Positions 10,661 through 20,741 of a stretch of 64,000 bases of DNA are shown piece by piece. The DNA lies in the NCBI RefSeq assembly GCF_000420725.1, contig NZ_ATVM01000001.1:1-64000 (forward strand). The letters run 5' to 3'. The notes under the pieces are model-generated. The model had not been told where the DNA came from. It worked only from the letters and a program-made list of their open reading frames with translations, and ran no database searches. The DNA is from Marinococcus halotolerans DSM 16375 (GTDB taxonomy: Bacteria; Bacillota; Bacilli; Bacillales; Marinococcaceae). A program made the translations under genes and the position numbers. Within the stretch, counting starts at the first letter, position 1. The number at the start of each line of letters is the position of its first letter.

Positions 10661-11095
10661 CTATAACCGTACGACCATCACGCTGCAGTCGGCATTTTTT
10701 GTAATGTGCTCGGACACGCTGCCAAGAAAAATCTTCTCGACGGCATTTAAGCCAGTCGCACCCGTGACAATTAAATCGACGTTGTATTTTGGCACAAGAT
10801 CGCGTGGAATGGCTGTTTTTGGCGATCCGTATTCGATGTCAGCCACCACGTCCGTGATGCCAAACTCTTCTGCCTGCTTTTTATATTTATCAAGCAGCTG
10901 GCGTGCATCATCCTCTACATTACTGATAACGGTGGAATCGTAATTGCTCATCGGCCGGTAGGCATTACGGTTGATCACCTGGGTGATCACAAGCTGCGAC
11001 CCCTGGGCTTTAGCAATCGGAAGAGCAGTTTCAAACGCGTAATCGGCTTCCTCGGAACCATCTACGGCAACTAAAATAACGTCCATGGTATGCAT
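10661..11095 (-). CDS. Universal stress protein, single UspA domain
   Basis: 144 residues, one UspA domain: VILVAVDGSEEADYAF at the start and the nucleotide loop GATGLNAVEKIFLGSVSEH near the end. AGGAGG lies 6 bases before the ATG. This third UspA gene ends convergently with fnr. It is likely a dimeric nucleotide-binding stress protein, with the same anaerobic or starvation context as its paralogues, although no exact Fnr box is found in its own upstream region. Confidence 0.9.
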   Translation of the reverse strand: MHTMDVILVAVDGSEEADYAFETALPIAKAQGSQLVITQVINRNAYRPMSNYDSTVISNVEDDARQLLDKYKKQAEEFGITDVVADIEYGSPKTAIPRDLVPKYNVDLIVTGATGLNAVEKIFLGSVSEHITKNADCSVMVVRL

Positions 11096-11254
11096 GATTT
11101 GCCTCCTAAAGAAATAATTGTGTTTCCACTCGTTTACTTCTAGTTATTATATGCATTTTCCTGTTTTCCGGGAGCTGAAAATTCCACATTGACCGATTAA
11201 GACAGGTGACTGCCGGGAATTACACCAGTAGACTTTTCCGGGAGGTGTTTAAAC

Positions 11255-11608
11255 ATGCTGAGCGTTACCTCGGCAGAAACAGATCGTATAATCGAGATTG
11301 AAATCAGCGGAAAGCTGACAGAAGAGGATTATGAAACATTCCGGAAGTGGTTTCATTCTGTGAAGCAGGACGAAACTCCGATTAATCTGCTTGCGGTGGC
11401 GGGCGACTGGAAGGGCATGACGCCCCAGGCGATTGTAGAGGATCTGAAATGGCTGAGACGCATAAATGAATTTCAAAAAATGGCAATTGTCAGTGATGAA
11501 AAAGGCATGAAAGCAGTGGAAACCTTCAGTAAGCTTATGCCTGGAATCGAAACAAAGCACTTCGGGCAGACAGAAAAGATAGAGGCACGTGAATGGCTGG
11601 GGCAATAA
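11255..11608 (+). CDS. SpoIIAA/STAS-like protein, 117 aa
   Basis: Begins MLSVTSAETDRIIEIEISGKLTEEDYETF, which matches the start of the SpoIIAA-like STAS family (DUF3478 type); the middle (PINLLAVAGDWKGMT) and MAIVSDEKGM also fit. These small proteins resemble anti-sigma-factor antagonists but usually lack partner kinases and have no proven role. GGGAGGTG precedes the ATG. Next on the strand is a 66-aa gene 33 bases downstream, probably co-transcribed. Confidence 0.75.
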   Translation: MLSVTSAETDRIIEIEISGKLTEEDYETFRKWFHSVKQDETPINLLAVAGDWKGMTPQAIVEDLKWLRRINEFQKMAIVSDEKGMKAVETFSKLMPGIETKHFGQTEKIEAREWLGQ

Positions 11609-11641
11609 TCCCCGGGCCGTAAAAAGAAAGGAGCTTTCAGC

Positions 11642-11842
11642 ATGAGTGAAGCAACCGTGAAACTCGCTGTACAGGGAGAAAACGAGATCAGAAAAGAACA
11701 GAAAACAAGCTTTATCCCCCGCATCGGTGAAACTATAGCCCTCGAACCGGACGAAAAATTCCGGGTGATTGATATAGAGTATACAATGTTTGGGGAAAAC
11801 GCGGCGACTACAGAGGTAGTAGCACTAGTGAAAAGATTGTAA
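11642..11842 (+). CDS. Small hypothetical protein, 66 aa
   Basis: ATG after AAAGGAG. Beta-rich by eye (KTSFIPRIGETIAL, KFRVIDIEYTMF, TEVVALVKRL), suggesting a small barrel. No family recognised. It follows the STAS-like gene closely and is closed by a terminator 9 bases after its stop, so the two probably form a short operon. Confidence 0.65.
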   Translation: MSEATVKLAVQGENEIRKEQKTSFIPRIGETIALEPDEKFRVIDIEYTMFGENAATTEVVALVKRL

Positions 11843-11851
11843 AAGCCGGCA

Positions 11852-11876
11852 GCGTCTCTGGGAAGAGACGCTTTTC
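11852..11876 (+). terminator. Rho-independent terminator
   Basis: GCGTCTCT-GGGA-AGAGACGC perfect stem followed by TTTT. Confidence 0.85.
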
Positions 11877-12006
11877 GTTTAATGCATAATATAATTATGT
11901 TAACTGAAAAATATCTTAAAGCGAAGCAGAAAAAGGATTACGACCGCAGTAAAAGCGGGTAAAAGGGATTAACGACCATGATGCGTACGTTAAAGGAGGG
12001 ATCGCC

Positions 12007-12234
12007 GTGAATAAAAAGCAGAAAAAGCAGCTGGACAGGCTGATTATTGATTATCTGAAGGACCGGGGAAAATCTCATGAGCTGAAGGTGGCAGACGAGC
12101 TGTCGGAGCGGTTTGAAGGAAAGCTGCATGCTGCTACCGTACTGGTCAGAATTGACCGGATGAAAAAAAGCAACGAATTGCGGCATGAGGCCAAAGCTGT
12201 GCACGATACAATCGTCTGGGCAAAAAAACTGTAG
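12007..12234 (+). CDS. Small basic helical protein, 75 aa
   Basis: GTG start 9 bases after AAGGAGGG. Very lysine-rich start (MNKKQKKQLDRLIIDYL), then helices (HELKVADELSERFEG, HAATVLVRIDRMKKSNELR), consistent with a small winged-helix or other nucleic-acid-binding fold. Not recognised as a known family. It lies at the left of the small-gene island, where most other products are acidic; its basic charge makes it a candidate regulator. Confidence 0.6.
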   Translation: MNKKQKKQLDRLIIDYLKDRGKSHELKVADELSERFEGKLHAATVLVRIDRMKKSNELRHEAKAVHDTIVWAKKL

Positions 12235-12356
12235 TTTCATTCATAAAAAACGAGGATCCTGGTTTTTAACCCGGTCAGAACGGGGAAAGACGAGAATAGA
12301 AAGAACGGCAGACGGAAGCTGCACTGCCGCACAGCATGTGGAGGAGGACTCTGGTA

Positions 12357-12635
12357 ATGGAGAAACTGGAATTCCAATTTATAACGGTCGATAAACGGGG
12401 AGAAATCCCGATAGAAAGCGGCATATTGACTATCGAAAACGACAATACATGGCAGGCGGAATTAATTAATTTCACCGGCGGCATGGAGCTGTTCTCCGAT
12501 CAGGGCAATGAGTTCCGCATTAAGGATAACAGCCTGGTGGAGTACGAAGGAAAAGGCAGGGCGTCGAAAGCAGGCGATGAAGACTCGGAAGGAAATATAA
12601 TCATTAAAGGCCAGGGGAAAATTAGCAAGTACTAA
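12357..12635 (+). CDS. Hypothetical protein, 92 aa
   Basis: ATG at 12357 chosen because GGAGGAGG lies at the right distance; the in-frame start 21 bases upstream lacks this. The protein appears all-beta (LEFQFITVDKRGEI, GILTIENDNTWQAEL, NIIIKGQGKISKY) and acidic, with no signal peptide. No family recognised. Independent unit with its own terminator. Confidence 0.65.
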   Translation: MEKLEFQFITVDKRGEIPIESGILTIENDNTWQAELINFTGGMELFSDQGNEFRIKDNSLVEYEGKGRASKAGDEDSEGNIIIKGQGKISKY

Positions 12636-12638
12636 TAA

Positions 12639-12663
12639 AGCATCCCGGACGGGGTGCTTTTTC
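12639..12663 (+). terminator. Rho-independent terminator
   Basis: AGCATCCCG / CGGGGTGCT stem followed by a T-run. It belongs to the recurrent AGCATCC/GGGTGCT stem family of this window. Confidence 0.8.
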
Positions 12664-12699
12664 AATGAATACGTCGGACGCAGAGGAGGAACGACTTGT

Positions 12700-13017
12700 A
12701 TGGACACGTATTATGAACACCCGGAATACCGTCCGTTTTTTCCAAATGCCCTGAACGCTGCGCATTCCATCGAGATACTGGATTTCGACGGGCTGGCCCT
12801 GCTTATCCAGATGACCGATGAGGCAGTAAATTCACCGCACCGGCCGGACAGGGACAACCTGCTGCACTGGCTGTGGGACACCGGCGTCGGCTATCTGGAG
12901 AAAAATGATCCCGGCGAGCGCCAGCGGATGGTGATTACAGAAGCAGATCTTGAAAACGGGAAATTGATTACCTCCTATGAAGATCTTCTGAAAGAATTCG
13001 AAGGGTCCGGGTACTAA
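12700..13017 (+). CDS. WLW-family small protein, copy 1 (105 aa)
   Basis: ATG shortly after GAGGAGG. Shares with the genes at 16390 and 18657 the order: a beta strand ending in a run such as LALLIQMT followed by Ala-containing helix; WLWDTG at residues 57-62; YLE; a strand RMVITEADLENGKLIT; and a C-terminal SYEDLLKEF. I recognise no described domain. Acidic, cytoplasmic, no membrane segment. Copies are diverged, so the duplications are old. The next gene follows after 36 bases and may be co-transcribed. Confidence 0.7.
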   Translation: MDTYYEHPEYRPFFPNALNAAHSIEILDFDGLALLIQMTDEAVNSPHRPDRDNLLHWLWDTGVGYLEKNDPGERQRMVITEADLENGKLITSYEDLLKEFEGSGY

Positions 13018-13053
13018 ACAGCAGAGTAAAAAAAGTTTCCCCAGGAGGTAAAT

Positions 13054-13383
13054 ATGTCATTTCGAAATTCTATAGGAAAAAATGTTAGAATTGCTCTTGC
13101 AGATATAGCCAAAGAAGATAAAGTACTGCAATTAATTTTGGCGCCTAAAACGATGGAAAAATTTATTATCGTAAAAATCGATTCCATCGATGAGATGGGC
13201 ATATGGATCGAACACGAAATAGAAGCTGAGTTCGATGAAGATGAAGACGGAGAAAAGCTGCTGCAGACGCAGCGCGAGAAAAAATTCGTCCGGTCAAAAT
13301 TTCTCATCAAGTGGAACTACATCGAAGGGGCCTATGCGCCGCTTGACGATGACGTAAACAGTAAAATGAAATTCCTGCGATAA
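13054..13383 (+). CDS. Hypothetical protein, 109 aa
   Basis: ATG with AGGAGG at ideal spacing. The product has an N-terminal stretch NSIGKNVRIALADIAK, strands (VLQLILAP, FIIVKIDSIDEMGIWIEHE), a highly acidic loop (EAEFDEDEDGEKL) and a C-terminal KFLIKWNYIEGAYAP. The layout recalls small barrel proteins with an inserted acidic loop, but no family is recognised. More AT-rich than neighbouring genes. It stops 15 bases before the next start, suggesting one transcript with the 149-aa gene. Confidence 0.65.
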   Translation: MSFRNSIGKNVRIALADIAKEDKVLQLILAPKTMEKFIIVKIDSIDEMGIWIEHEIEAEFDEDEDGEKLLQTQREKKFVRSKFLIKWNYIEGAYAPLDDDVNSKMKFLR

Positions 13384-13398
13384 AAGGAGGGGTCTTAC

Positions 13399-13848
13399 AT
13401 GGACAATTGGATTCATCAATTATCAAGCACGGCCCGCCAGAATAAAAAACAGGCGTCCACCGTGGAAGAAGAAAAGCAGATGGAAAGCATACGTGCCTGC
13501 TCCGAGCAGCTGACAGGCATGTTCGATGAATTGATGGGGACCATCAACGGCCGGTCAGACTTAAAAGTGGAAAAGGTAAAAAGCAACAAGCATGTAAAAT
13601 ATTTTTACGGCGTTTCCGAGCTGATCATTGAGTCCGGGGAGATTTTCACCCGTAAAGGCTTTTTGGAAATGAGCTTTAAAATTCGTATTAATGACTCTGC
13701 CTATAACGTCAGCGACGTCAGGCCGCGCAGTGCTTACCTGAAGGACTTAAACTCCTGCAGATGGGAAACGGAAACAGGTGCTGTATTCAGTGAAGAACAG
13801 GCGTCGATATTATTTAAACAGGCACTGCTTCCTTATATTGAAGAATAA
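13399..13848 (+). CDS. Hypothetical protein, 149 aa
   Basis: ATG after AAAAGGAGG. The first 60 residues look helical (WIHQLSSTARQNKKQ, MESIRACSEQLTGMFDELMG); the rest alternates strands and helices (FYGVSELIIESGEIF, LEMSFKIRIN). Cytoplasmic, unknown family. Apparently the last gene of a three-gene transcript (12700, 13054, 13399), followed by a strong terminator. Confidence 0.65.
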   Translation: MDNWIHQLSSTARQNKKQASTVEEEKQMESIRACSEQLTGMFDELMGTINGRSDLKVEKVKSNKHVKYFYGVSELIIESGEIFTRKGFLEMSFKIRINDSAYNVSDVRPRSAYLKDLNSCRWETETGAVFSEEQASILFKQALLPYIEE

Positions 13849-13858
13849 AATCGACATA

Positions 13859-13898
13859 AACAGTCCGGAAAACAACCCGGGCTGTTTTTTTTATTTTT
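13859..13898 (+). terminator. Rho-independent terminator
   Basis: ACAGTCCGG / CCGGGCTGT stem followed by eight T. The 185 bases after it, up to the next gene, are AT-rich with no gene. Confidence 0.85.
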
Positions 13899-14082
13899 TA
13901 AGCGTAGTGTTTTTAATAAAAAAGAAAACAGTGTATTGATGCACAAAAACAACAAAAAAATATACAGTGGGAACACGGGTCGCCCAGGTTAAAAAGCATC
14001 AGAAAATAAATTCCTTAATTTGAAAAATAATAGTACTTTATTACTTGAAATTGAAGTATTATAAAAGAGAGGGGGATAAGCG

Positions 14083-14304
14083 ATGGCTACCGTGTATGTC
14101 AACCGCCATGTTCGTTATGTTCAGGTGCTGTTAAGCGATGAGGGGAGTCTGTTGCACTGTTTAACCTGGGAGACCGATGAAGGATTTGTGTTTGACGTAC
14201 ATGCGCTTGATGACAGCTCGTTTTCCCCTAAGTACGACCGGATCTATATGCCGTTTGACCAGGAAACAATGACGCTCCATGGAAACACATATATTTTATA
14301 TTAA
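14083..14304 (+). CDS. Small hypothetical protein, 73 aa
   Basis: ATG after GAGAGGGGG. Beta-rich sequence VYVNRHVRYVQVLLSD, FVFDVHALDDSSFSP, then LHGNTYILY. Its C-terminal half loosely resembles the protein at 17913 (both have a strand, a Phe-x-Pro loop and a final H/G-x-TY-[IV]-L segment), so the two may be distant relatives. No known family. Own terminator downstream. Confidence 0.6.
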   Translation: MATVYVNRHVRYVQVLLSDEGSLLHCLTWETDEGFVFDVHALDDSSFSPKYDRIYMPFDQETMTLHGNTYILY

Positions 14305-14329
14305 TCATATTTTGGCTGGCAATAAATCA

Positions 14330-14362
14330 AGGGGTGTCCGGAAATGCACGGCACCTCTTTGT
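14330..14362 (+). terminator. Terminator-like hairpin
   Basis: AGGGGTGTCCG / CGGCACCTCT stem with a short T-run. Confidence 0.6.
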
Positions 14363-14552
14363 ATTATTTTATATACATGTTGAATTGATGTATAAAAACT
14401 AAGTGTGTCGTTTGATGTGTTTCTAAATCGATTCATGTTTCTTTTTTTATATACACTTATTCAAAGGACGAATTTTTGTAGTTTTAACAGGGGATGTGTG
14501 CTGAGCATACCGGGCACCATATATTTCCTATACATCGGGAAGTGGGAGTGTT

Positions 14553-14816
14553 ATGCTTTGGGCGGAACAGGAGTTGAAAGGAGCATGCGCTATCTCTCAA
14601 TTTTCTTATGTGATTGATGAAGAAGGAAATGAAGTTTTCGTAGGGACAGAAGAAGACATTAAGGAAAAGTTTCCGGACAGGGAAAAGCATATTTTTAACA
14701 CCGAAGAGGACCTGCTGAAAGGCATACGGGATTTTCGGGAAAATGAACGAATCATATCTGTGGTAAGCGACCTGCCGGTTTTAAATGAACAGTGGAAAAA
14801 CAAAGACAATATGTAA
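14553..14816 (+). CDS. Hypothetical protein, 87 aa
   Basis: ATG preceded by GGGAG. Sequence AISQFSYVIDEEGNEVFVGTEEDIKE looks like a beta-hairpin followed by an acidic helix, then helices FNTEEDLLKGIRDF and a beta-like end RIISVVSDLPVL. Unknown family. The first 14 residues may be spurious, since a TTG at 14574 is another possible start. AT-rich compared with core genes. Confidence 0.5.
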   Translation: MLWAEQELKGACAISQFSYVIDEEGNEVFVGTEEDIKEKFPDREKHIFNTEEDLLKGIRDFRENERIISVVSDLPVLNEQWKNKDNM

Positions 14817-14983
14817 AAACGATTCGCTTATGCCGGAGCAGGCGGGCGTTTTATTTATTACTTAGGTGCGTACCGGACTTTCTTCAGAAAAGTCCGTTTT
14901 TTTTGTCAGGCGGAAGGCTTTTGAAAGCGCTGACGTAGTATAATGAACAAAGTACCTCCCAGTCTTTGTCAGAGAGGAAGATG

Positions 14984-15166
14984 ATGATGAAAAAGAGAAG
15001 AAATACCGCCTGGCTGCTGGTCCCGCTGCTGCTTCTGCAGGCCTGGTGGCTTTACCGGGAAGCAGAAAAGCAGGGAAAAGCAAAATGGACATGGGGCCTG
15101 TGGGGATTAACGCAGTTTCCGACCCCGGCAGTCGCTTTTTATGTTATTCACAAATGGAAGGAATGA
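14984..15166 (+). CDS. Small two-helix membrane protein, about 60 aa
   Basis: Three consecutive ATGs follow AGAGGAAG; spacing favours the second or third. The protein starts MMKKRRNTAW, then has one clear hydrophobic helix (LLVPLLLLQAWWLY), a charged loop and a weaker aromatic hydrophobic segment (WGLTQFPTPAVAFYVI) before a basic end. This suggests a short membrane hairpin. No family recognised. A TATAAT lies about 45 bases upstream. Confidence 0.6.
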   Translation: MMKKRRNTAWLLVPLLLLQAWWLYREAEKQGKAKWTWGLWGLTQFPTPAVAFYVIHKWKE

Positions 15167-15293
15167 CCCTGGGCTTCTACCCGGGCGCTTCTTTTCCGAG
15201 GTTTCAAATCACCGTCCGGGTGTAATAGGGTAAAAAGAAGCCGGGGATTCTGCCGGCATGTGCAGCACCTATTAGAGTGAAGGGGCGACAAAA

Positions 15294-15596
15294 ATGAAAC
15301 AGGAAACTCAGGAAATCAACGAAATTGTACTCGACGAATCGGAGCTGCGATTTGATTCTGCGTATTTGTATCTGGAAACGTCCGGTCCGGAGCGGATCGG
15401 GGAAAGCGCCTGGACGATAGTCATTTACAATGCAGAGCAGGAATTTTCCGAGGAGTTTACGAACCGAAACAGCATCAGCATTCGGATCAAAACCGAAGAA
15501 GCAGAGTACCAGGGACTCGTTAAATTTAAAAATATTGAAGGCAGCGAGAAGAAGCACTGTCATCTCGACGGCCTCGATGAACTGGTGCAAATATAA
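15294..15596 (+). CDS. Hypothetical beta-rich protein, 100 aa
   Basis: ATG after GAAGGGGCG. Acidic; contains IVLDESELRFDSAYLYL, SAWTIVIYNAEQEF and YQGLVKFKNIEG. It resembles the protein at 16075 in the order GPER/GPLER, WT[IV]-x-I, and a strand-G-x-V near the C-terminus, so the two may be paralogues. No known family. A terminator follows at once. Confidence 0.65.
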   Translation: MKQETQEINEIVLDESELRFDSAYLYLETSGPERIGESAWTIVIYNAEQEFSEEFTNRNSISIRIKTEEAEYQGLVKFKNIEGSEKKHCHLDGLDELVQI

Positions 15597-15608
15597 AGAA
15601 GAACTAGA

Positions 15609-15644
15609 AAACGGGTGTCAGCTGAAGCTGGCGCCTGTTTTTGC
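15609..15644 (+). terminator. Rho-independent terminator
   Basis: ACGGGTGTCAGC / GCTGGCGCCTGT stem with a TGAA loop, followed by a T-run. Confidence 0.85.
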
Positions 15645-15743
15645 ATGTTGGGAAGCTGGCAGCCGGATGAACGTTTAATACGCGTGAATTCGGGGATTAT
15701 AGCTGTGAAAAGATGCTCAATGATTGGGAAAGGAGAGAAAGCC

Positions 15744-15986
15744 ATGAGTCCGAGAAAAGAAGCGATGGCCCAGCTCGCTGGAAGAGTCGAGCGCGGGGAG
15801 ATCGGAGCCGAGTGGTCGCCGGTAGATGAAATCGAGCAGGACCGTTTTCAGGAGCTTGCGGAGCACGGATACGTGACGTATGACGACGCCTCCGGAGAGA
15901 AAGATCAGGCGGTTTACAGCGGCATTAAGATTACAAAAGAAGGCCGCGAGCTTTATGAAGAATATAAACGGCAGGTGGACGAATAG
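15744..15986 (+). CDS. Small winged-helix-like protein, 80 aa
   Basis: ATG 15744 is chosen for the GAAAGGAGAG upstream; longer in-frame starts cross the preceding terminator. Helical N-terminus (RKEAMAQLAGRVERGE), then a segment FQELAEHGYVTYDD, and a C-terminus IKITKEGRELYEEY. The last pattern is common at the end of winged-helix proteins, where the wing is followed by an ITxxGRE helix. DNA binding is possible but unproven. It precedes the 16075/16390 pair by about 90 bases. Confidence 0.6.
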   Translation: MSPRKEAMAQLAGRVERGEIGAEWSPVDEIEQDRFQELAEHGYVTYDDASGEKDQAVYSGIKITKEGRELYEEYKRQVDE

Positions 15987-16074
15987 AAATTAATGCACCC
16001 AACAGGAGATTTTGAACAAGCCGCCTTTTTTAAAGAATGAAGCTAAAAGAAATAACAACACCCAGGAGGACGCG

Positions 16075-16368
16075 ATGCCGACATTAGCACTTGAATCTGT
16101 TAAAACAATCTCCACAAATGAAGTTATCCATGTAAATGATGGACAGCTGCAGGCTGGAGACGGGCCGCTCGAGCGCTGGACCGTCTCCATTACAGACTGC
16201 GAAAACGAGGAATTTTTCCACCAGGCCTTCAACAGTGCCTCGCCTGCACTGGATCTGTATTTTTACACCCGGGAAGGGTTTCAGTTTGGCGGCCAGGTGT
16301 ATATTACCCGGGTGGATCAGGAAAGCATCGAGCTTGAAGGAAGCAGTGCGCTCCAGGAGCAATCGTAA
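16075..16368 (+). CDS. Hypothetical beta-rich protein, 97 aa
   Basis: The ATG at 16075 follows CAGGAGG; the longer frame from 16012 lacks a ribosome-binding site. Contains LALESVKTISTNEVIHV, then GPLERWTVSITD, LDLYFYTREGFQFGGQVYI and IELEGSSALQ. Probably a paralogue of the protein at 15294. Unknown family. The next gene, a WLW-family member, starts 21 bases downstream, so the two are likely co-translated partners. Confidence 0.65.
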   Translation: MPTLALESVKTISTNEVIHVNDGQLQAGDGPLERWTVSITDCENEEFFHQAFNSASPALDLYFYTREGFQFGGQVYITRVDQESIELEGSSALQEQS

Positions 16369-16389
16369 TCGGATAAAAGGAGGATAACT

Positions 16390-16716
16390 ATGGCACAGGA
16401 ACCGGATTTTTCCCAGGAGGGACTGAAAGGCTACCGCGTACGTCCGACCCATTTTGCCGGAGAATCAGTTGAAGTGTACCGGGACGAAGAACTGGTGCTG
16501 CTCGTCCAGGTGACCACCTCGGCGATGGCAGCCGAAGCCAGTTTAAAGGAAGAAAACGTGCCGGGATGGCTGTGGGACATTGGCATGGACTATTTGAAGC
16601 AGGAACAGCCCACGGAAAGAAAACGTCTCGTCCTCACCGTCCAGGACGTCACGGACGGAGAAGTAAACAAATCGTATGACAATTTATTAAGAGATTTTGA
16701 AGCGCCCTCAAGCTGA
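16390..16716 (+). CDS. WLW-family small protein, copy 2 (108 aa)
   Basis: ATG after AAAGGAGG. Homologous in layout to 12700 and 18657: SVEVYRDEELVLLVQVTTSAM, GWLWDIGMDYL (WLW at residues 60-62), RLVLTVQDVTDGEV and SYDNLLRDFE. Unknown domain. It directly follows 16075 and likely shares its transcript. The terminator stem starts within its last five codons, so translation and termination are physically coupled here. Confidence 0.7.
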   Translation: MAQEPDFSQEGLKGYRVRPTHFAGESVEVYRDEELVLLVQVTTSAMAAEASLKEENVPGWLWDIGMDYLKQEQPTERKRLVLTVQDVTDGEVNKSYDNLLRDFEAPSS

Positions 16717-16731
16717 GAGGGCGCTTTTTTG
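16701..16731 (+). terminator. Terminator overlapping the end of the coding sequence
   Basis: AGCGCCCTC / GAGGGCGCT perfect stem followed by six T. The left arm is part of the coding sequence and the stop codon lies in the loop. Confidence 0.85.
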
Positions 16732-16827
16732 TTTCTGTTATATAGAAGACAGTAAATAATAAAAAATTTCATGAAATCGAAAGTTGATGGCGGAAGTTTA
16801 ATTGTTGTTACCCCATGAGAGAAGTAA

Positions 16828-16856
16828 CAAAAAAAGCGGGCTGAAAACACCCGCTT
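16828..16856 (-). terminator. Terminator of the DUF4352-like lipoprotein gene
   Basis: On the reverse strand AAGCGGG-TGTTTTCAG-CCCGCTT is followed by a T-run, just after the stop of the gene at 16866. Confidence 0.8.
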
Positions 16857-16865
16857 AATCGACTT

Positions 16866-17606
16866 TTACCAAGTATCCACTTCCAAATCGTCTTGAGTCA
16901 AATTTCCGGAACCTTCTTCTAATGGAAATGTATAGCGCTCTTCTTCGGCAAGGTCGTCCATGTCATCATAATCATACGGAGCATCAATAATGTAAGTGAC
17001 TTCTGAAACCTCTGCTTCAGCATCACTCAGTACGTAATACATTGTCCCTCCCATGCTGACGTCTCCAAGGAAATCGTCCCCAAGCCAAGTACTGAACATC
17101 ATGTCGCTTTCCAACTGTTCGCCGGAATCCGTAGTCAAATACGAACCCGGATAAAAGGAGACATCATCCTCTGTGGTGTTTGTCGCCTCCACATCTACTG
17201 CCAGCAGTTTTACTTGATCAGCTGGTTCGTCTAAATAATAATCCTTGGCTTCTTGAGACGTTTCCAGCTCAATAAGAGCCACGTGATTCACCGAAAATTC
17301 CATAGGCCCAATCGACATAGTGTTTCCTATCGCTTCACCGGTGCCGTGTTTGATAATTTCCGCTTGACCTAAGCCAGAAAAGTCAAAAATGGAAGAGGAT
17401 TCTTCTGCTGATTCATCTTTTGAATCTTCTTCAGAGTTCTGCTCATTGGCAGTAGAATTTTCTTCTGATCCTTCCTCCGCTTTATCGTTTTCAGAGGTAG
17501 TTTCTTCGTTAGCTTCGGGGGCTTCGCTGTCCACATCTTCAGCTCCGCATCCAGTTAAAACAACTATACCTGCTCCAATAAAACCTAACCAAGGTGTTCT
17601 TCTCAT
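16866..17606 (-). CDS. Lipoprotein, DUF4352-like
   Basis: Signal peptide with lipobox VLTGC (Cys20), then about 50 residues of Glu/Ser/Asn-rich linker, then a domain with GEAIGNTMSIGPMEFSVNHVALIE, a strand LLAVDVEATNTTEDDVSFYPG and a further strand GTMYYVLSD. This matches extracellular DUF4352 beta-sandwich lipoproteins of Firmicutes. Function is unknown; such proteins sit outside the membrane. The very acidic linker fits a salt-adapted organism. Confidence 0.8.
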   Translation of the reverse strand: MRRTPWLGFIGAGIVVLTGCGAEDVDSEAPEANEETTSENDKAEEGSEENSTANEQNSEEDSKDESAEESSSIFDFSGLGQAEIIKHGTGEAIGNTMSIGPMEFSVNHVALIELETSQEAKDYYLDEPADQVKLLAVDVEATNTTEDDVSFYPGSYLTTDSGEQLESDMMFSTWLGDDFLGDVSMGGTMYYVLSDAEAEVSEVTYIIDAPYDYDDMDDLAEEERYTFPLEEGSGNLTQDDLEVDTW

Positions 17607-17912
17607 GAGACTATCCCCTTTGTGTATAATGTATGATAAAAATACAGCTAAAATGAAGCTGTATTTTTCATATGAGAGTCTTTATACTTATAATAGCGAC
17701 AAATTGTTCCATTTTCTACTAGTATTTTCATAATGTTATTAATTTATATTTCTATCGTATTTATTATAGAAGAAACAGGCTGACTGATCGTTTGCGGGGG
17801 CGGTCCTGAGAAACGGTTTTCACTGGGCCCGGCAGGAAATTCTTTCTGAAAAAAACAGGCGGGTGTCTTCTCGAACAGCACAAACTGTGGTATAAATAAG
17901 TGGAGGGGGTGG
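17607..17912. other. Divergent intergenic region, 306 bases
   Basis: No gene seen. It holds an AATACAGCT / AGCTGTATT hairpin (about 17641-17667) followed on the forward strand by TTT, AT-rich sequence likely to contain the promoter of the lipoprotein gene, and a TATAAA about 20 bases upstream of the gene at 17913. The right half is GC-rich. Confidence 0.5.
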
Positions 17913-18212
17913 ATGACAGTGGCTTTAGTGGAATTCAAATGCAGAACGCAGCCGCAGGTGACGTATAGCAGTGAAGGTCATGAAATTCATTACAAGGTGA
18001 TTGAATACGCCGATGGCTATGAAGTGGTGCTTCATTCGATGAGTAATTTTCAGCCGGCCGATGAAAAACTGTTATTTCATCAGGGAAGTCAGGTCATTCA
18101 CGCCAAAGAGCATACTTACGTGTTAGACACCTGCGATTGTGTGTACAGCGGTGAGCCCGATGAAACGATCGATCACTCGATCTGTCACAAACCGTATTCT
18201 AAATCTATGTAA
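17913..18212 (+). CDS. Hypothetical protein with C-terminal cysteines, 99 aa
   Basis: Starts at ATG 17913 after GGAGGGGG. Beta-rich sequence (HEIHYKVIEYADGYEVVLHSM) followed by HTYVLDTCDCVYSGEPDETIDHSICH. Three cysteines and several His near the end (CDC and CHK) could bind a metal such as zinc. Possibly a distant relative of the 73-aa protein at 14083. No known family. Confidence 0.6.
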   Translation: MTVALVEFKCRTQPQVTYSSEGHEIHYKVIEYADGYEVVLHSMSNFQPADEKLLFHQGSQVIHAKEHTYVLDTCDCVYSGEPDETIDHSICHKPYSKSM

Positions 18213-18222
18213 ACGCTAAGCG

Positions 18223-18251
18223 GAGCTTTCCTTCCCGGGAGGCTCTTTTTT
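18223..18251 (+). terminator. Probable terminator
   Basis: GAGC ... GGCTC imperfect stem around TCCCGGGA with six T following, shortly after the preceding stop. Confidence 0.6.
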
Positions 18252-18302
18252 GTGGCGGGCGCAGGTATAAAAACATTCCGGAAAATAGAAAGGGGCATAC
18301 CA

Positions 18303-18527
18303 ATGCTGCATTTTGAAAAGAAGGATCTTCACAACTTAAACCATGCGGAAGCGCCGTATGTATCCATTTACCAATACGGAAAAACGGACATCAGCAGCCA
18401 TCCCTCCGACAGCAGCCGGGTGGGGCTGTCCAAGCAGGGCATGATGAAGCTGGTGAGCTACTGGATCGAGGAAGGCAACCTGGATGAAAACGACAAACAG
18501 CAGATTAAAGAGTGGCTCGACCAGTAA
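18303..18527 (+). CDS. Small hypothetical protein, 74 aa
   Basis: ATG after GAAAGGGG; the longer frame from 18252 has no ribosome-binding site and overlaps the terminator region. Sequence APYVSIYQYGKTDISSHPSDSSR, then helix KQGMMKLVSYWIEEGNLDEN and KQQIKEWLDQ. Cytoplasmic and mixed alpha/beta. Not recognised. No terminator is obvious before the next gene, 130 bases on. Confidence 0.6.
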   Translation: MLHFEKKDLHNLNHAEAPYVSIYQYGKTDISSHPSDSSRVGLSKQGMMKLVSYWIEEGNLDENDKQQIKEWLDQ

Positions 18528-18656
18528 CCTTTTAGGAAGCGCGTGGGAAATTCGGGTTTAGCAGGAGGGTGGCCGGGAAAAGGAATCACAATTCACCAAT
18601 AGAAAGACGAGCTTCGGACAGGAATTAATGCCGGAGTCGTTAAAGGGGGAATCGTG

Positions 18657-18971
18657 ATGGCACGCCTGCTTGATTTTTACCACGGACCGTACGAAGGTAG
18701 CCCGGGAGAGTCTGAACATTTTAATGGACCGGTGCTTCACATCTTTGAGCGCGAACAGCTGCTCCTGTCGATGCAGATTACGGCAGAGGCGCTCCAGAAA
18801 AACGAACTGAATGTAGACATGACCACGGTGTATGAATGGCTCTGGCACCGGGGGCTCGAATTTATTGAACGGGAAAATATTACGTCAGCCACGGTGATCG
18901 TAATTACTGACCGGGATATTCAAAAAGACAAAATCATTACGGACTACCAGACGCTTGCCATCCGGGCATAA
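18657..18971 (+). CDS. WLW-family small protein, copy 3 (104 aa)
   Basis: ATG after AAAGGGGGA (a GTG directly before it is an alternative). Same layout as 12700 and 16390: VLHIFEREQLLLSMQITAEAL, EWLWHRGLEFIE (WLW at residues 61-63), TVIVITDRDIQKDKIIT, DYQTLA. Most diverged of the three. It is the last gene of the small-gene island before lexA, ending at a strong bidirectional terminator. Confidence 0.7.
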   Translation: MARLLDFYHGPYEGSPGESEHFNGPVLHIFEREQLLLSMQITAEALQKNELNVDMTTVYEWLWHRGLEFIERENITSATVIVITDRDIQKDKIITDYQTLAIRA

Positions 18972-18976
18972 TAATG

Positions 18977-19020
18977 AAACAGGCCGCCTGCTTTTTTAAA
19001 AAAAGCAGGCGGCCTGTTTT
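18977..19020. terminator. Strong bidirectional terminator
   Basis: AAACAGGCCGCCTGCTTTTTT and its complement form a stem of about 20 bp between the convergent WLW-family gene and lexA. Confidence 0.9.
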
Positions 19021-19026
19021 GTGTGA

Positions 19027-19653
19027 TTAAAAGATGGTGCGGAAAACGCCGGTGACTCTGCCGAGTATCGTACAGTTTTCTAGAATAATCGGATCCATGG
19101 TGGCATTTTCAGGCTGCAGCCGGATAAAGTTTTCTTCTTTATAAAACCGTTTAACCGTTGCTTCCATTTCATCGGTCATAGCGACAATAATATCGCCGTT
19201 GTCTGCGGTCTGCTGTTTTTGAACGACGACAAGGTCCCCGTCAAAAATGCCGGCCTCAATCATGCTGTCGCCCTGGATGGTAAGCATGTAGACCTGTTCT
19301 TCATCGGTAACCATGCGTTCCGGAAGAGGGATGTATTCTTCGACATTTTCCACCGCGGTAATAGGCTCGCCGGCCGTGACTTTACCGATGACCGGCACGT
19401 ACACAGCCTTGCTTTCGTGGATCGGCTCACTGCCCTGATCCTCAAGCTCAAGTACTTCAATCGCCCGTGGCTTTGTCGGGTCGCGGCGGATTAAGTTTTT
19501 ATTTTCAAGGCGGGCGAGGTGCCCGTGAACCGTAGAACTCGAAGCGAGTCCGACGGCTTCCCCGATCTCCCGTACCGAAGGCGGATAGCCTTTTTCTTTT
19601 ACTTCTTCTTTTATATAATCAAGAATTTGCTGCTGGCGCTTGGATAGCTTCAT
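19027..19653 (-). CDS. lexA: LexA, SOS repressor
   Basis: 208 residues from an ATG with AGGTGCGG-type sequence upstream; the longer in-frame start is inside the promoter. Winged HTH at residues about 25-50 ([21 protein letters not shown]). Self-cleavage site Ala94-Gly95 (VTAGEP), catalytic Ser130 (GDSM) and Lys168 (ATVKRF): every residue needed for RecA-triggered autocleavage is present, each shifted by three from B. subtilis LexA. Divergent from yneA with SOS-like boxes between, so it represses itself and yneA. Confidence 0.97.
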
Positions 19654-19715
19654 CTCCGCACCTCCTTTTGAGGAATTTTTCTGAATAAAGTATAGCATGA
19701 GGGGAACAAAAACGC

Positions 19716-19727
19716 AAACACCCGTTC
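19716..19727. promoter_or_regulatory. SOS-like box 1
   Basis: AAACACCCGTTC matches the Bacillus core GAACNNNNGTTC except for the first base. Confidence 0.5.
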
Positions 19728-19745
19728 TAATATTTTTGTTGACGG

Positions 19746-19757
19746 GAACAGGTATTC
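19746..19757. promoter_or_regulatory. SOS-like box 2
   Basis: GAACAGGTATTC has one mismatch from GAACNNNNGTTC, between lexA and yneA. Confidence 0.6.
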
Positions 19758-19778
19758 TGGTATACTGGGTGAATATAA

Positions 19779-19790
19779 GAACATACATTC
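19779..19790. promoter_or_regulatory. SOS-like box 3
   Basis: GAACATACATTC has one mismatch from the LexA core, 22 bases before the yneA start. Confidence 0.65.
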
Positions 19791-19811
19791 TCATTCAGGG
19801 GGAACATGCAT

Positions 19812-20054
19812 ATGAATAAACTCAAAGCTTTTACTTCAACGGACTGGACCATGCTTATCTTATTTGCATTTGCACTTTTATTTTTGGTATATTCAGCGGA
19901 CGCTTCCATCACTCCGGATACGCTGGGCGGCACGGAATCAGACCGTTCGGCAGAAATCGTCTATGAACAGGAGCATCCGGTTTTAAAGGACAGGCCGGGC
20001 TATCAGGAAGAGCCATGGGAGCAAACGGTGTCGTTTGATGCACCCGAACAGTAA
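19812..20054 (+). CDS. yneA: YneA-like SOS division inhibitor, no LysM seen
   Basis: About 80 residues; the second ATG (19812) fits the GGGGG sequence better than 19806. One N-terminal membrane helix (WTMLILFAFALLFLVYS) is followed by an acidic extracellular tail. Position (divergent from lexA, upstream of yneB) and SOS-like boxes identify it as the YneA counterpart, which delays division during DNA damage. B. subtilis YneA is longer and ends in a LysM peptidoglycan-binding domain; no LysM pattern is visible here, so wall targeting may be lost or replaced. Confidence 0.75.
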   Translation: MNKLKAFTSTDWTMLILFAFALLFLVYSADASITPDTLGGTESDRSAEIVYEQEHPVLKDRPGYQEEPWEQTVSFDAPEQ

Positions 20055-20078
20055 AACGCGAACGGAAAGGACCGCTGA

Positions 20079-20741
<663 letters not shown>

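Follow-up and report, generated by a model that had tools for sequence, protein, structure and literature searches.

The first 64,000 nucleotides of contig NZ_ATVM01000001.1 of Marinococcus halotolerans DSM 16375 (assembly GCF_000420725.1; hereafter the window) carry three short genes, set in an island 5' of lexA whose genes are small and for the most part unassigned, that encode diverged members of a single protein family, named here after its Trp-Leu-Trp (WLW) helix (Table 1). An initial annotation of the window had proposed that these genes are three diverged copies of one family, and our comparisons bear this out: open reading frames lie where it placed them, and BLASTP aligned copies 1 and 2 with 37% identity over 83 residues (E 2e-21), copies 1 and 3 with 30% over 74 residues (E 3e-11) and copies 2 and 3 with 27% over 100 residues (E 2e-13; all single-comparison E-values).

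Table 1. Position and supporting evidence of the WLW genes and the features around them in the window
Feature	Position	Strand	Product	Evidence and remarks
WLW copy 1	12700..13017	+	105 residues	open reading frame, family alignment; orthologs in G001 and G002
WLW copy 2	16390..16716	+	108 residues	open reading frame, ribosome-binding site AAAGGAGG, orthologs in 5/5 genus genomes, structure model
WLW copy 3	18657..18971	+	104 residues from ATG 18657, 105 if GTG 18654 is the start	open reading frame, alignment, orthologs in 5/5 genus genomes
Candidate SigB-type promoter, GTTTAG-N13-GGGAA	18556..18579	+		upstream of copy 3; boxes conserved and spacer variable in 5/5 genomes
Candidate SigB-type site	12262..12287	+		before gene 12357-12635, which immediately precedes copy 1; conserved in 5/5 genomes
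Small predicted gene	12357..12635	+		open reading frame; no Pfam or NCBIfam match; in 4/4 other genomes; between the 12262 site and copy 1
Small gene directly 5' of copy 2	16078..16368	+		open reading frame; no family match; in 4/4 other genomes
Terminator-like hairpin with short T run	12638..12662	+		between gene 12357-12635 and copy 1; found by eye, absent from the sites of the hairpin scan
Terminator-like hairpin	16699..16727	+		overlaps the end of copy 2; hairpin scan
Long terminator-like hairpin	18977..19019	- (near-symmetrical)		between copy 3 and convergent lexA; hairpin scan

The alignment of the three copies covers most of each protein's length and contains 16 invariant columns, including L-x-L-x2-Q-x-T-x2-A, W-L-W-x2-G, V-x-T-x2-D and Y-x2-L. 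The W-L-W-x2-G motif lies near residue 60, as had been described (residues 57-62 in copy 1), while the proposed I/V-T-x2-D strand and closing Tyr-x-(D/T)-L segment are right in kind and need widening in detail, to I/V/L-T-x2-D (copy 2 reads VLTVQD) and to Y-x-(D/N/T)-L. The start of copy 3 is uncertain because its ATG reads ATA in G001, leaving the adjoining GTG as an alternative. When a profile built from the three copies was run against the 3,139,679-base Marinococcus genome it matched these three genes alone; a fourth match (E 0.12), inside a 372-residue frame on another contig, was judged spurious.

The family occurs in all five Marinococcus genomes, with three copies each in G000, G001 and G002 and copies 2 and 3 in G003 and G004. 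The nearest named records belong to M. luteus (L005), M. halophilus (L006) and an uncultured Marinococcus (L007), and in all three the synteny with lexA is kept; of 17 island genes tested, 14 to 17 were recovered in each of four other genomes. The ratio of nonsynonymous to synonymous substitution rates (dN/dS) was obtained for 23 ortholog pairs, four pairs with L017 being left out since they were out of register by one codon. It lay between 0.12 and 0.23 in 17 of the 23, and was 0.06 and 0.99 in two near-identical pairs; the three are therefore real genes under purifying selection. Within the genus each copy forms its own clade (support 99/99, 97/94 and 100/99), and the split into paralogs predates the divergence of the sampled Marinococcus genomes. 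A single clade of all 13 Marinococcus rows was not rejected (p 0.18).

Rather than scattering the three genes among different known families, profile searches recovered a single family, with single relatives in other genera: L021 (in genome G027), L022 (G021) and the prophage-borne L023 (G007). No Pfam or NCBIfam model matched any of the three copies (best Pfam row 15 bits, cut-off 25), no Pfam model matched these three relatives, and sequence searches of the PDB gave nothing convincing. The family is thus real, small and without a curated-library model, as the initial annotation held in knowing of no named domain for it, yet it joins a known phage cluster without an assigned function, PHROG 37894. 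In direct hmmscan comparisons this cluster matched L023 (2.7e-35) and L022 (3.8e-10), and copies 1 and 3 weakly (0.0065 and 0.0013), with no match to copy 2 or L021. Profile-profile comparison joined the Marinococcus set to the phage set with an E-value of 1.5e-12, and an intermediate set (L021, L022, L039-L041) to the phage set at 4.1e-22 and to the Marinococcus set at 5.6e-21.

PHROG 37894 includes PHI105_00250 (ADF59183.1) of the classic Bacillus phage phi105 and WMM35780.1 of vB_BteM-A9Y, and shares with the Marinococcus proteins the strands, a WLW-type helix, an I-T-x2-D strand and a W/Y-x2-L end; its predicted structural elements also match those of the Marinococcus model. Most phage forms, L056 excepted, differ in an extra N-terminal helix (MGYRYDM...QQQAIVRxRDE...). 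By our own reading of the phage alignments the QQQAIVR helix is absent from the Marinococcus copies, which are therefore distant relatives of the PHROG 37894 subfamily and not members of it. The settings differ as well, in that the phage gene precedes HNH and terminase genes whereas the Marinococcus genes lie in a chromosomal island beside lexA. Three orphan genes are in this way gathered into one small, single-domain alpha/beta family, common to Marinococcaceae chromosomes, scattered Bacillales and phi105-type phages, and tied to an uncharacterised phi105 gene. We found no mention of PHI105_00250, ADF59183 or phrog_37894 in our literature search.

Elsewhere the family is sparse. A first search matched 13 of 29 genomes at E <= 1, five of which (best E 0.019-0.75) were judged spurious. 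Ten of 397 genomes in a sample of the order matched at E <= 0.01, four of them Marinococcus, adding L038-L041; three of 398 matched in the class sample, own genome included, adding L059 and the weak L060; and one of 348 at E <= 0.001 in the phylum sample, again the genome itself. Among 50,697 phage records, tblastn located the family in phi105 (two records) and vB_BteM-A9Y. Relatives of the phi105 protein stand on seven viral contigs, two at 100%. Viral scans with A1, L038 and L040 as queries found no relative, and the scan with L023 matched one contig alone, equal in length (43,598) to the one that carries L023. A plasmid search returned three Priestia records at E 1e-2. One weak possible member (L072 8263-8733, genome G422; E 0.003) lies directly 3' of a gene that by eye resembles a RelE-like toxin.

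The upstream DNA offers what is, in our view, the most useful new handle on the family, a putative link to the general stress sigma factor SigB, drawn from conserved DNA. The SigB-type promoter of copy 3 begins 101 bases 5' of the ATG in all five Marinococcus genomes. A strict scan of 25 genes found one further fully conserved site, upstream of gene 12357-12635, and a site before gene 20810 in two of five genomes; with one mismatch allowed in GTTTAA, the SpoIIAA-like gene 11255 joins in the three of three genomes that have it. The SigB-type site upstream of gene 11255 lies at 11195-11219. In a mismatch test given 24 genes, 23 of them with at least three genomes, three of the 23 had a site conserved in every genome having that gene when up to one mismatch was tolerated. 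Of 300 random permuted motifs one reached three genes (mean 0.07), and across the full set of 600 distinct box permutations the real motif alone did so (mean 0.08). The rsbV-rsbW-sigB genes (rsb names assigned by eye from order and sequence) served as a positive control, and in 5/5 genomes they are preceded by GTTTAA-N14-GGGAA, which the copy 3 promoter resembles; the 10-kb region of this control holds other matches in four of the five, and none in G000. SigB itself scored over the curated cut-off in 5/5 Marinococcus genomes and in 7/7 other hosts examined. In a second genus, the single copy of G027 has GTTTAA-N12-GGGAA at -76, a motif that occurs twice in 407,526 strand-bases, the promoter's own occurrence included. 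The likeness to the SigB regulon of Bacillales thus lies in a SigB-type promoter before both copy 3 and the G027 copy, together with the presence of SigB. Excerpts of one study give the Bacillus subtilis consensus as GTTTAA-N15(+/-2)-GGGTAT, with a spacer of 14 appearing best (PMC9847131). Judged by its upstream DNA, copy 3 appears to be induced as part of the general stress response. With the conserved sites at 12262-12287 and 11195-11219, some of the small-gene island may likewise fall within the general stress regulon. We found no paper joining Marinococcus, sigma B and general stress.

Structure prediction and comparison, suggested with the initial annotation, recovered a core common to a Marinococcus copy and the phi105 protein, without a clear PDB match. 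The AlphaFold2 model of copy 2 (predicted local distance difference test score, pLDDT, 87.2; predicted template modelling score, pTM, 0.81) has strands at residues 7-9, 12-17, 24-31 and 34-42, helices at 43-48 and 57-72, the latter being the WLW helix, and a strand at 78-82. The phi105-type protein is modelled with the same core after an extra helix at 12-34 (pLDDT 77.6, pTM 0.62); the two models are not independent, since both were built from the same 17 window and fetched-locus sequences. Neither model had a match at E <= 0.001 in BFVD, nor did the copy 2 model in the PDB, and the best VIA-align Z-scores were 4.7 for copy 2 and 3.3 for the phi105-type protein. It is conceivable that no structure of this fold has been solved, though such search results do not make the fold new.

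Apart from one Asp, the near-invariant residues are chiefly W, L, I, A and G, and in the most diverse set of 12 sequences they come down to M1, W, L and I alone, so they look like core positions rather than an active site. Since a conserved polar active-site set is missing, a binding role is suggested in place of a catalytic one: the family probably comprises small, non-enzymatic binding proteins, whose partner, more likely a protein than DNA, would be contacted via the sheet or the WLW helix. DNA binding was weighed because copy 3, besides a weak phrog_1303 match, gave tblastn hits (E 3-4) in six Bacillus phage records to a protein annotated as DNA binding. In the one such record examined (L111), profile comparison joins 27 residues around the WLW helix with a probability of 56, and we read the partner region as an excisionase-type helix-turn-helix; this reading was set aside, the models having no such domain.

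Taken together, these observations fit a paralog family whose chromosomal copies are general-stress proteins with a binding role and whose phage version makes the same contact, a reading that as a whole we give slightly less than an even chance. The chromosomal proteins would be made when salt, heat or another stress releases SigB, with direct induction for copy 3 and perhaps read-through from the 12262 site for copy 1. Each protein would bind its partner through the sheet or the WLW helix without catalysis, and the paralogs would differ in partner or in the trigger to which they respond. During infection a similar contact would be made by the phage version, whose gene lies between the late-control region and the HNH/terminase genes. 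SigB would then provide a concrete regulatory handle for testing function in a tractable phage/host pair.

A number of results weigh against this reading. Neither copy 1 nor copy 2 is immediately preceded by a conserved SigB box, and the hairpin at 12638..12662 stands between the 12262 site and copy 1. The -35 box of copy 3 has one mismatch, and its spacer is 13 (12 in G027), against the 14 that appeared best in B. subtilis. With zero mismatches in GTTTAA no gene of the 23 has a conserved site, and with two mismatches four genes pass, yneA included, a number that 2 of 300 permuted draws also reach. Within the window the loose motif shows no enrichment (nine matches, chance mean 6.0, nine being reached by 12 of 100 shuffles). 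Among the other-host loci outside recognised phages (L021, L022, L039, L041 and L059) the box is present in L021 alone, one of five, while L022, the phage-type L038 and copy 2 have loose GTAT matches at most. In B. subtilis, according to the same excerpts, promoters of the GGGAA type performed poorly: PpucI (N17-GGGAAA) was very mild, PylaL was mild and unrelated to stressors, and PygaO (GTTTAT-N14-GGGAAT) showed no change (PMC9847131). Also unfavourable are a weak match of copy 3 to phrog_1303, 'DNA binding protein' (0.0037), and the failure to find copy 1 in two of the five genus genomes, G003 and G004. The corresponding position in G004 (L007) still holds a short sequence that looks, on inspection by eye, like the final codons of copy 1, so that the copy was probably lost there. 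Three genes before copy 2, upstream of gene 15294, a loose GTTT/GGGT pair is conserved in part only.

In phage genomes the gene has a recurrent position. As annotated in vB_BteM-A9Y, ArpU and then two hypothetical genes come before WLW, which is followed by a hypothetical gene on the opposite strand, HNH endonuclease, hypothetical, terminase small subunit, terminase large subunit, hypothetical and portal. In phi105, COG1598 and COG1724 genes are followed by WLW, a putative endonuclease, a hypothetical gene and the cos end; we take the COG1598 and COG1724 neighbours to be HicB and HicA. The order in L056 and L066 is similar (protein names read by eye), and L069 has a terminase-small-like helix-turn-helix gene, a resolvase (by eye), WLW and a terminase (Terminase_6C). 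It is possible, if on balance doubtful, that a phage packaging-region protein and a SigB-controlled stress protein of the host share one fold family, either because phages took a host stress effector for use beside their packaging genes or because hosts recruited and triplicated a phage effector. The family tree, which has no root and only weakly supported deep branches, is too weak to give the direction of host-phage transfer. A phage effector recruited by hosts would be a stress-inducible factor, for example against superinfection.

Another account would have the family be basically a phage late-region accessory protein, with the Marinococcus copies as domesticated or decaying left-overs of old prophages near lexA. 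The recurrent place of the phage members near HNH/terminase genes, their standing as the best-defined subfamily and the patchy wider distribution described above would all suit it, but the dN/dS values indicate a maintained function, the lexA synteny is kept, and none of ten other island genes searched (a set that left out 11255, 12336, 14966 and 16078) matched PHROG below E 0.02. The G027 copy argues the same way: 152 bp separate it from a 13.2-kb element whose ends are marked by a 31-bp repeat of a tRNA-Thr 3' end, and with both gene and promoter outside this repeat, carriage as mobile-element cargo was rejected. We therefore regard prophage left-overs as rather improbable. The G027 element (L065 9489 to L109 4736) encodes a terminase small subunit and a SocA/Panacea gene, has a weak DarG match, and looks like a phage satellite.

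A role of the family in phage defence or counter-defence is, in our view, distinctly unlikely. In G021 a full-length helicase gene (L064 6567-9119) matching the PADLOC candidate PDC-S28 (E 2.3e-281) follows the WLW gene on the same strand at a distance of 57 bp, and in phi105 the WLW gene adjoins the COG1598 and COG1724 genes; against this, none of ten other PDC-S28 loci in the order sample pairs the helicase with a family member (fetched flanks of 1.5 kb or to the contig end), for which the link through PDC-S28 was rejected, and PADLOC models gave a match to just one of 12 family members (0.00074, covering 37 residues). Least probable is a diverged DUF1488-type domain (PF07369), which is of similar size and heads the VIA-align rows of the copy 2 model (2gpi; Z 4.7, root-mean-square deviation 3.5 over 76 residues), but a Z under 8 may mean a common arrangement only, GatB rows tie at 4.6, the phi105-type model's rows do not include 2gpi, and profile-profile comparison (hhalign) with six annotated DUF1488 proteins gave a probability of 0.2, albeit from a small profile that itself finds 2gpi only at E 0.097; sequence therefore lends this identity no support.

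Around the WLW genes, a larger-block duplication was rejected as the origin of the copies, the WLW genes alone being clearly paralogous among 17 island genes. Two small genes, 14083-14304 and 17913-18212, are maybe distant paralogs of each other (profile-profile probability 16, 30% over 50 columns). Control by the SOS response was also discarded: a strict GAAC-N4-GTTC box was not found in the island, and nearness to lexA is therefore not taken as regulation. Rfam returned nothing within 11000-20100. Between copy 2 and gene 17913 lies a lipoprotein-like gene (16866-17606, minus strand) with a weak DUF4352 match, recovered at none of the other four Marinococcus loci. Copy 2 starts 21 nucleotides past the stop of gene 16078-16368, so that the two are probably co-transcribed. 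Terminator-like hairpins are in excess between 11000 and 20100 of the window (23 against 9.9 expected, standard deviation 3.0), fitting many short, separate transcription units.

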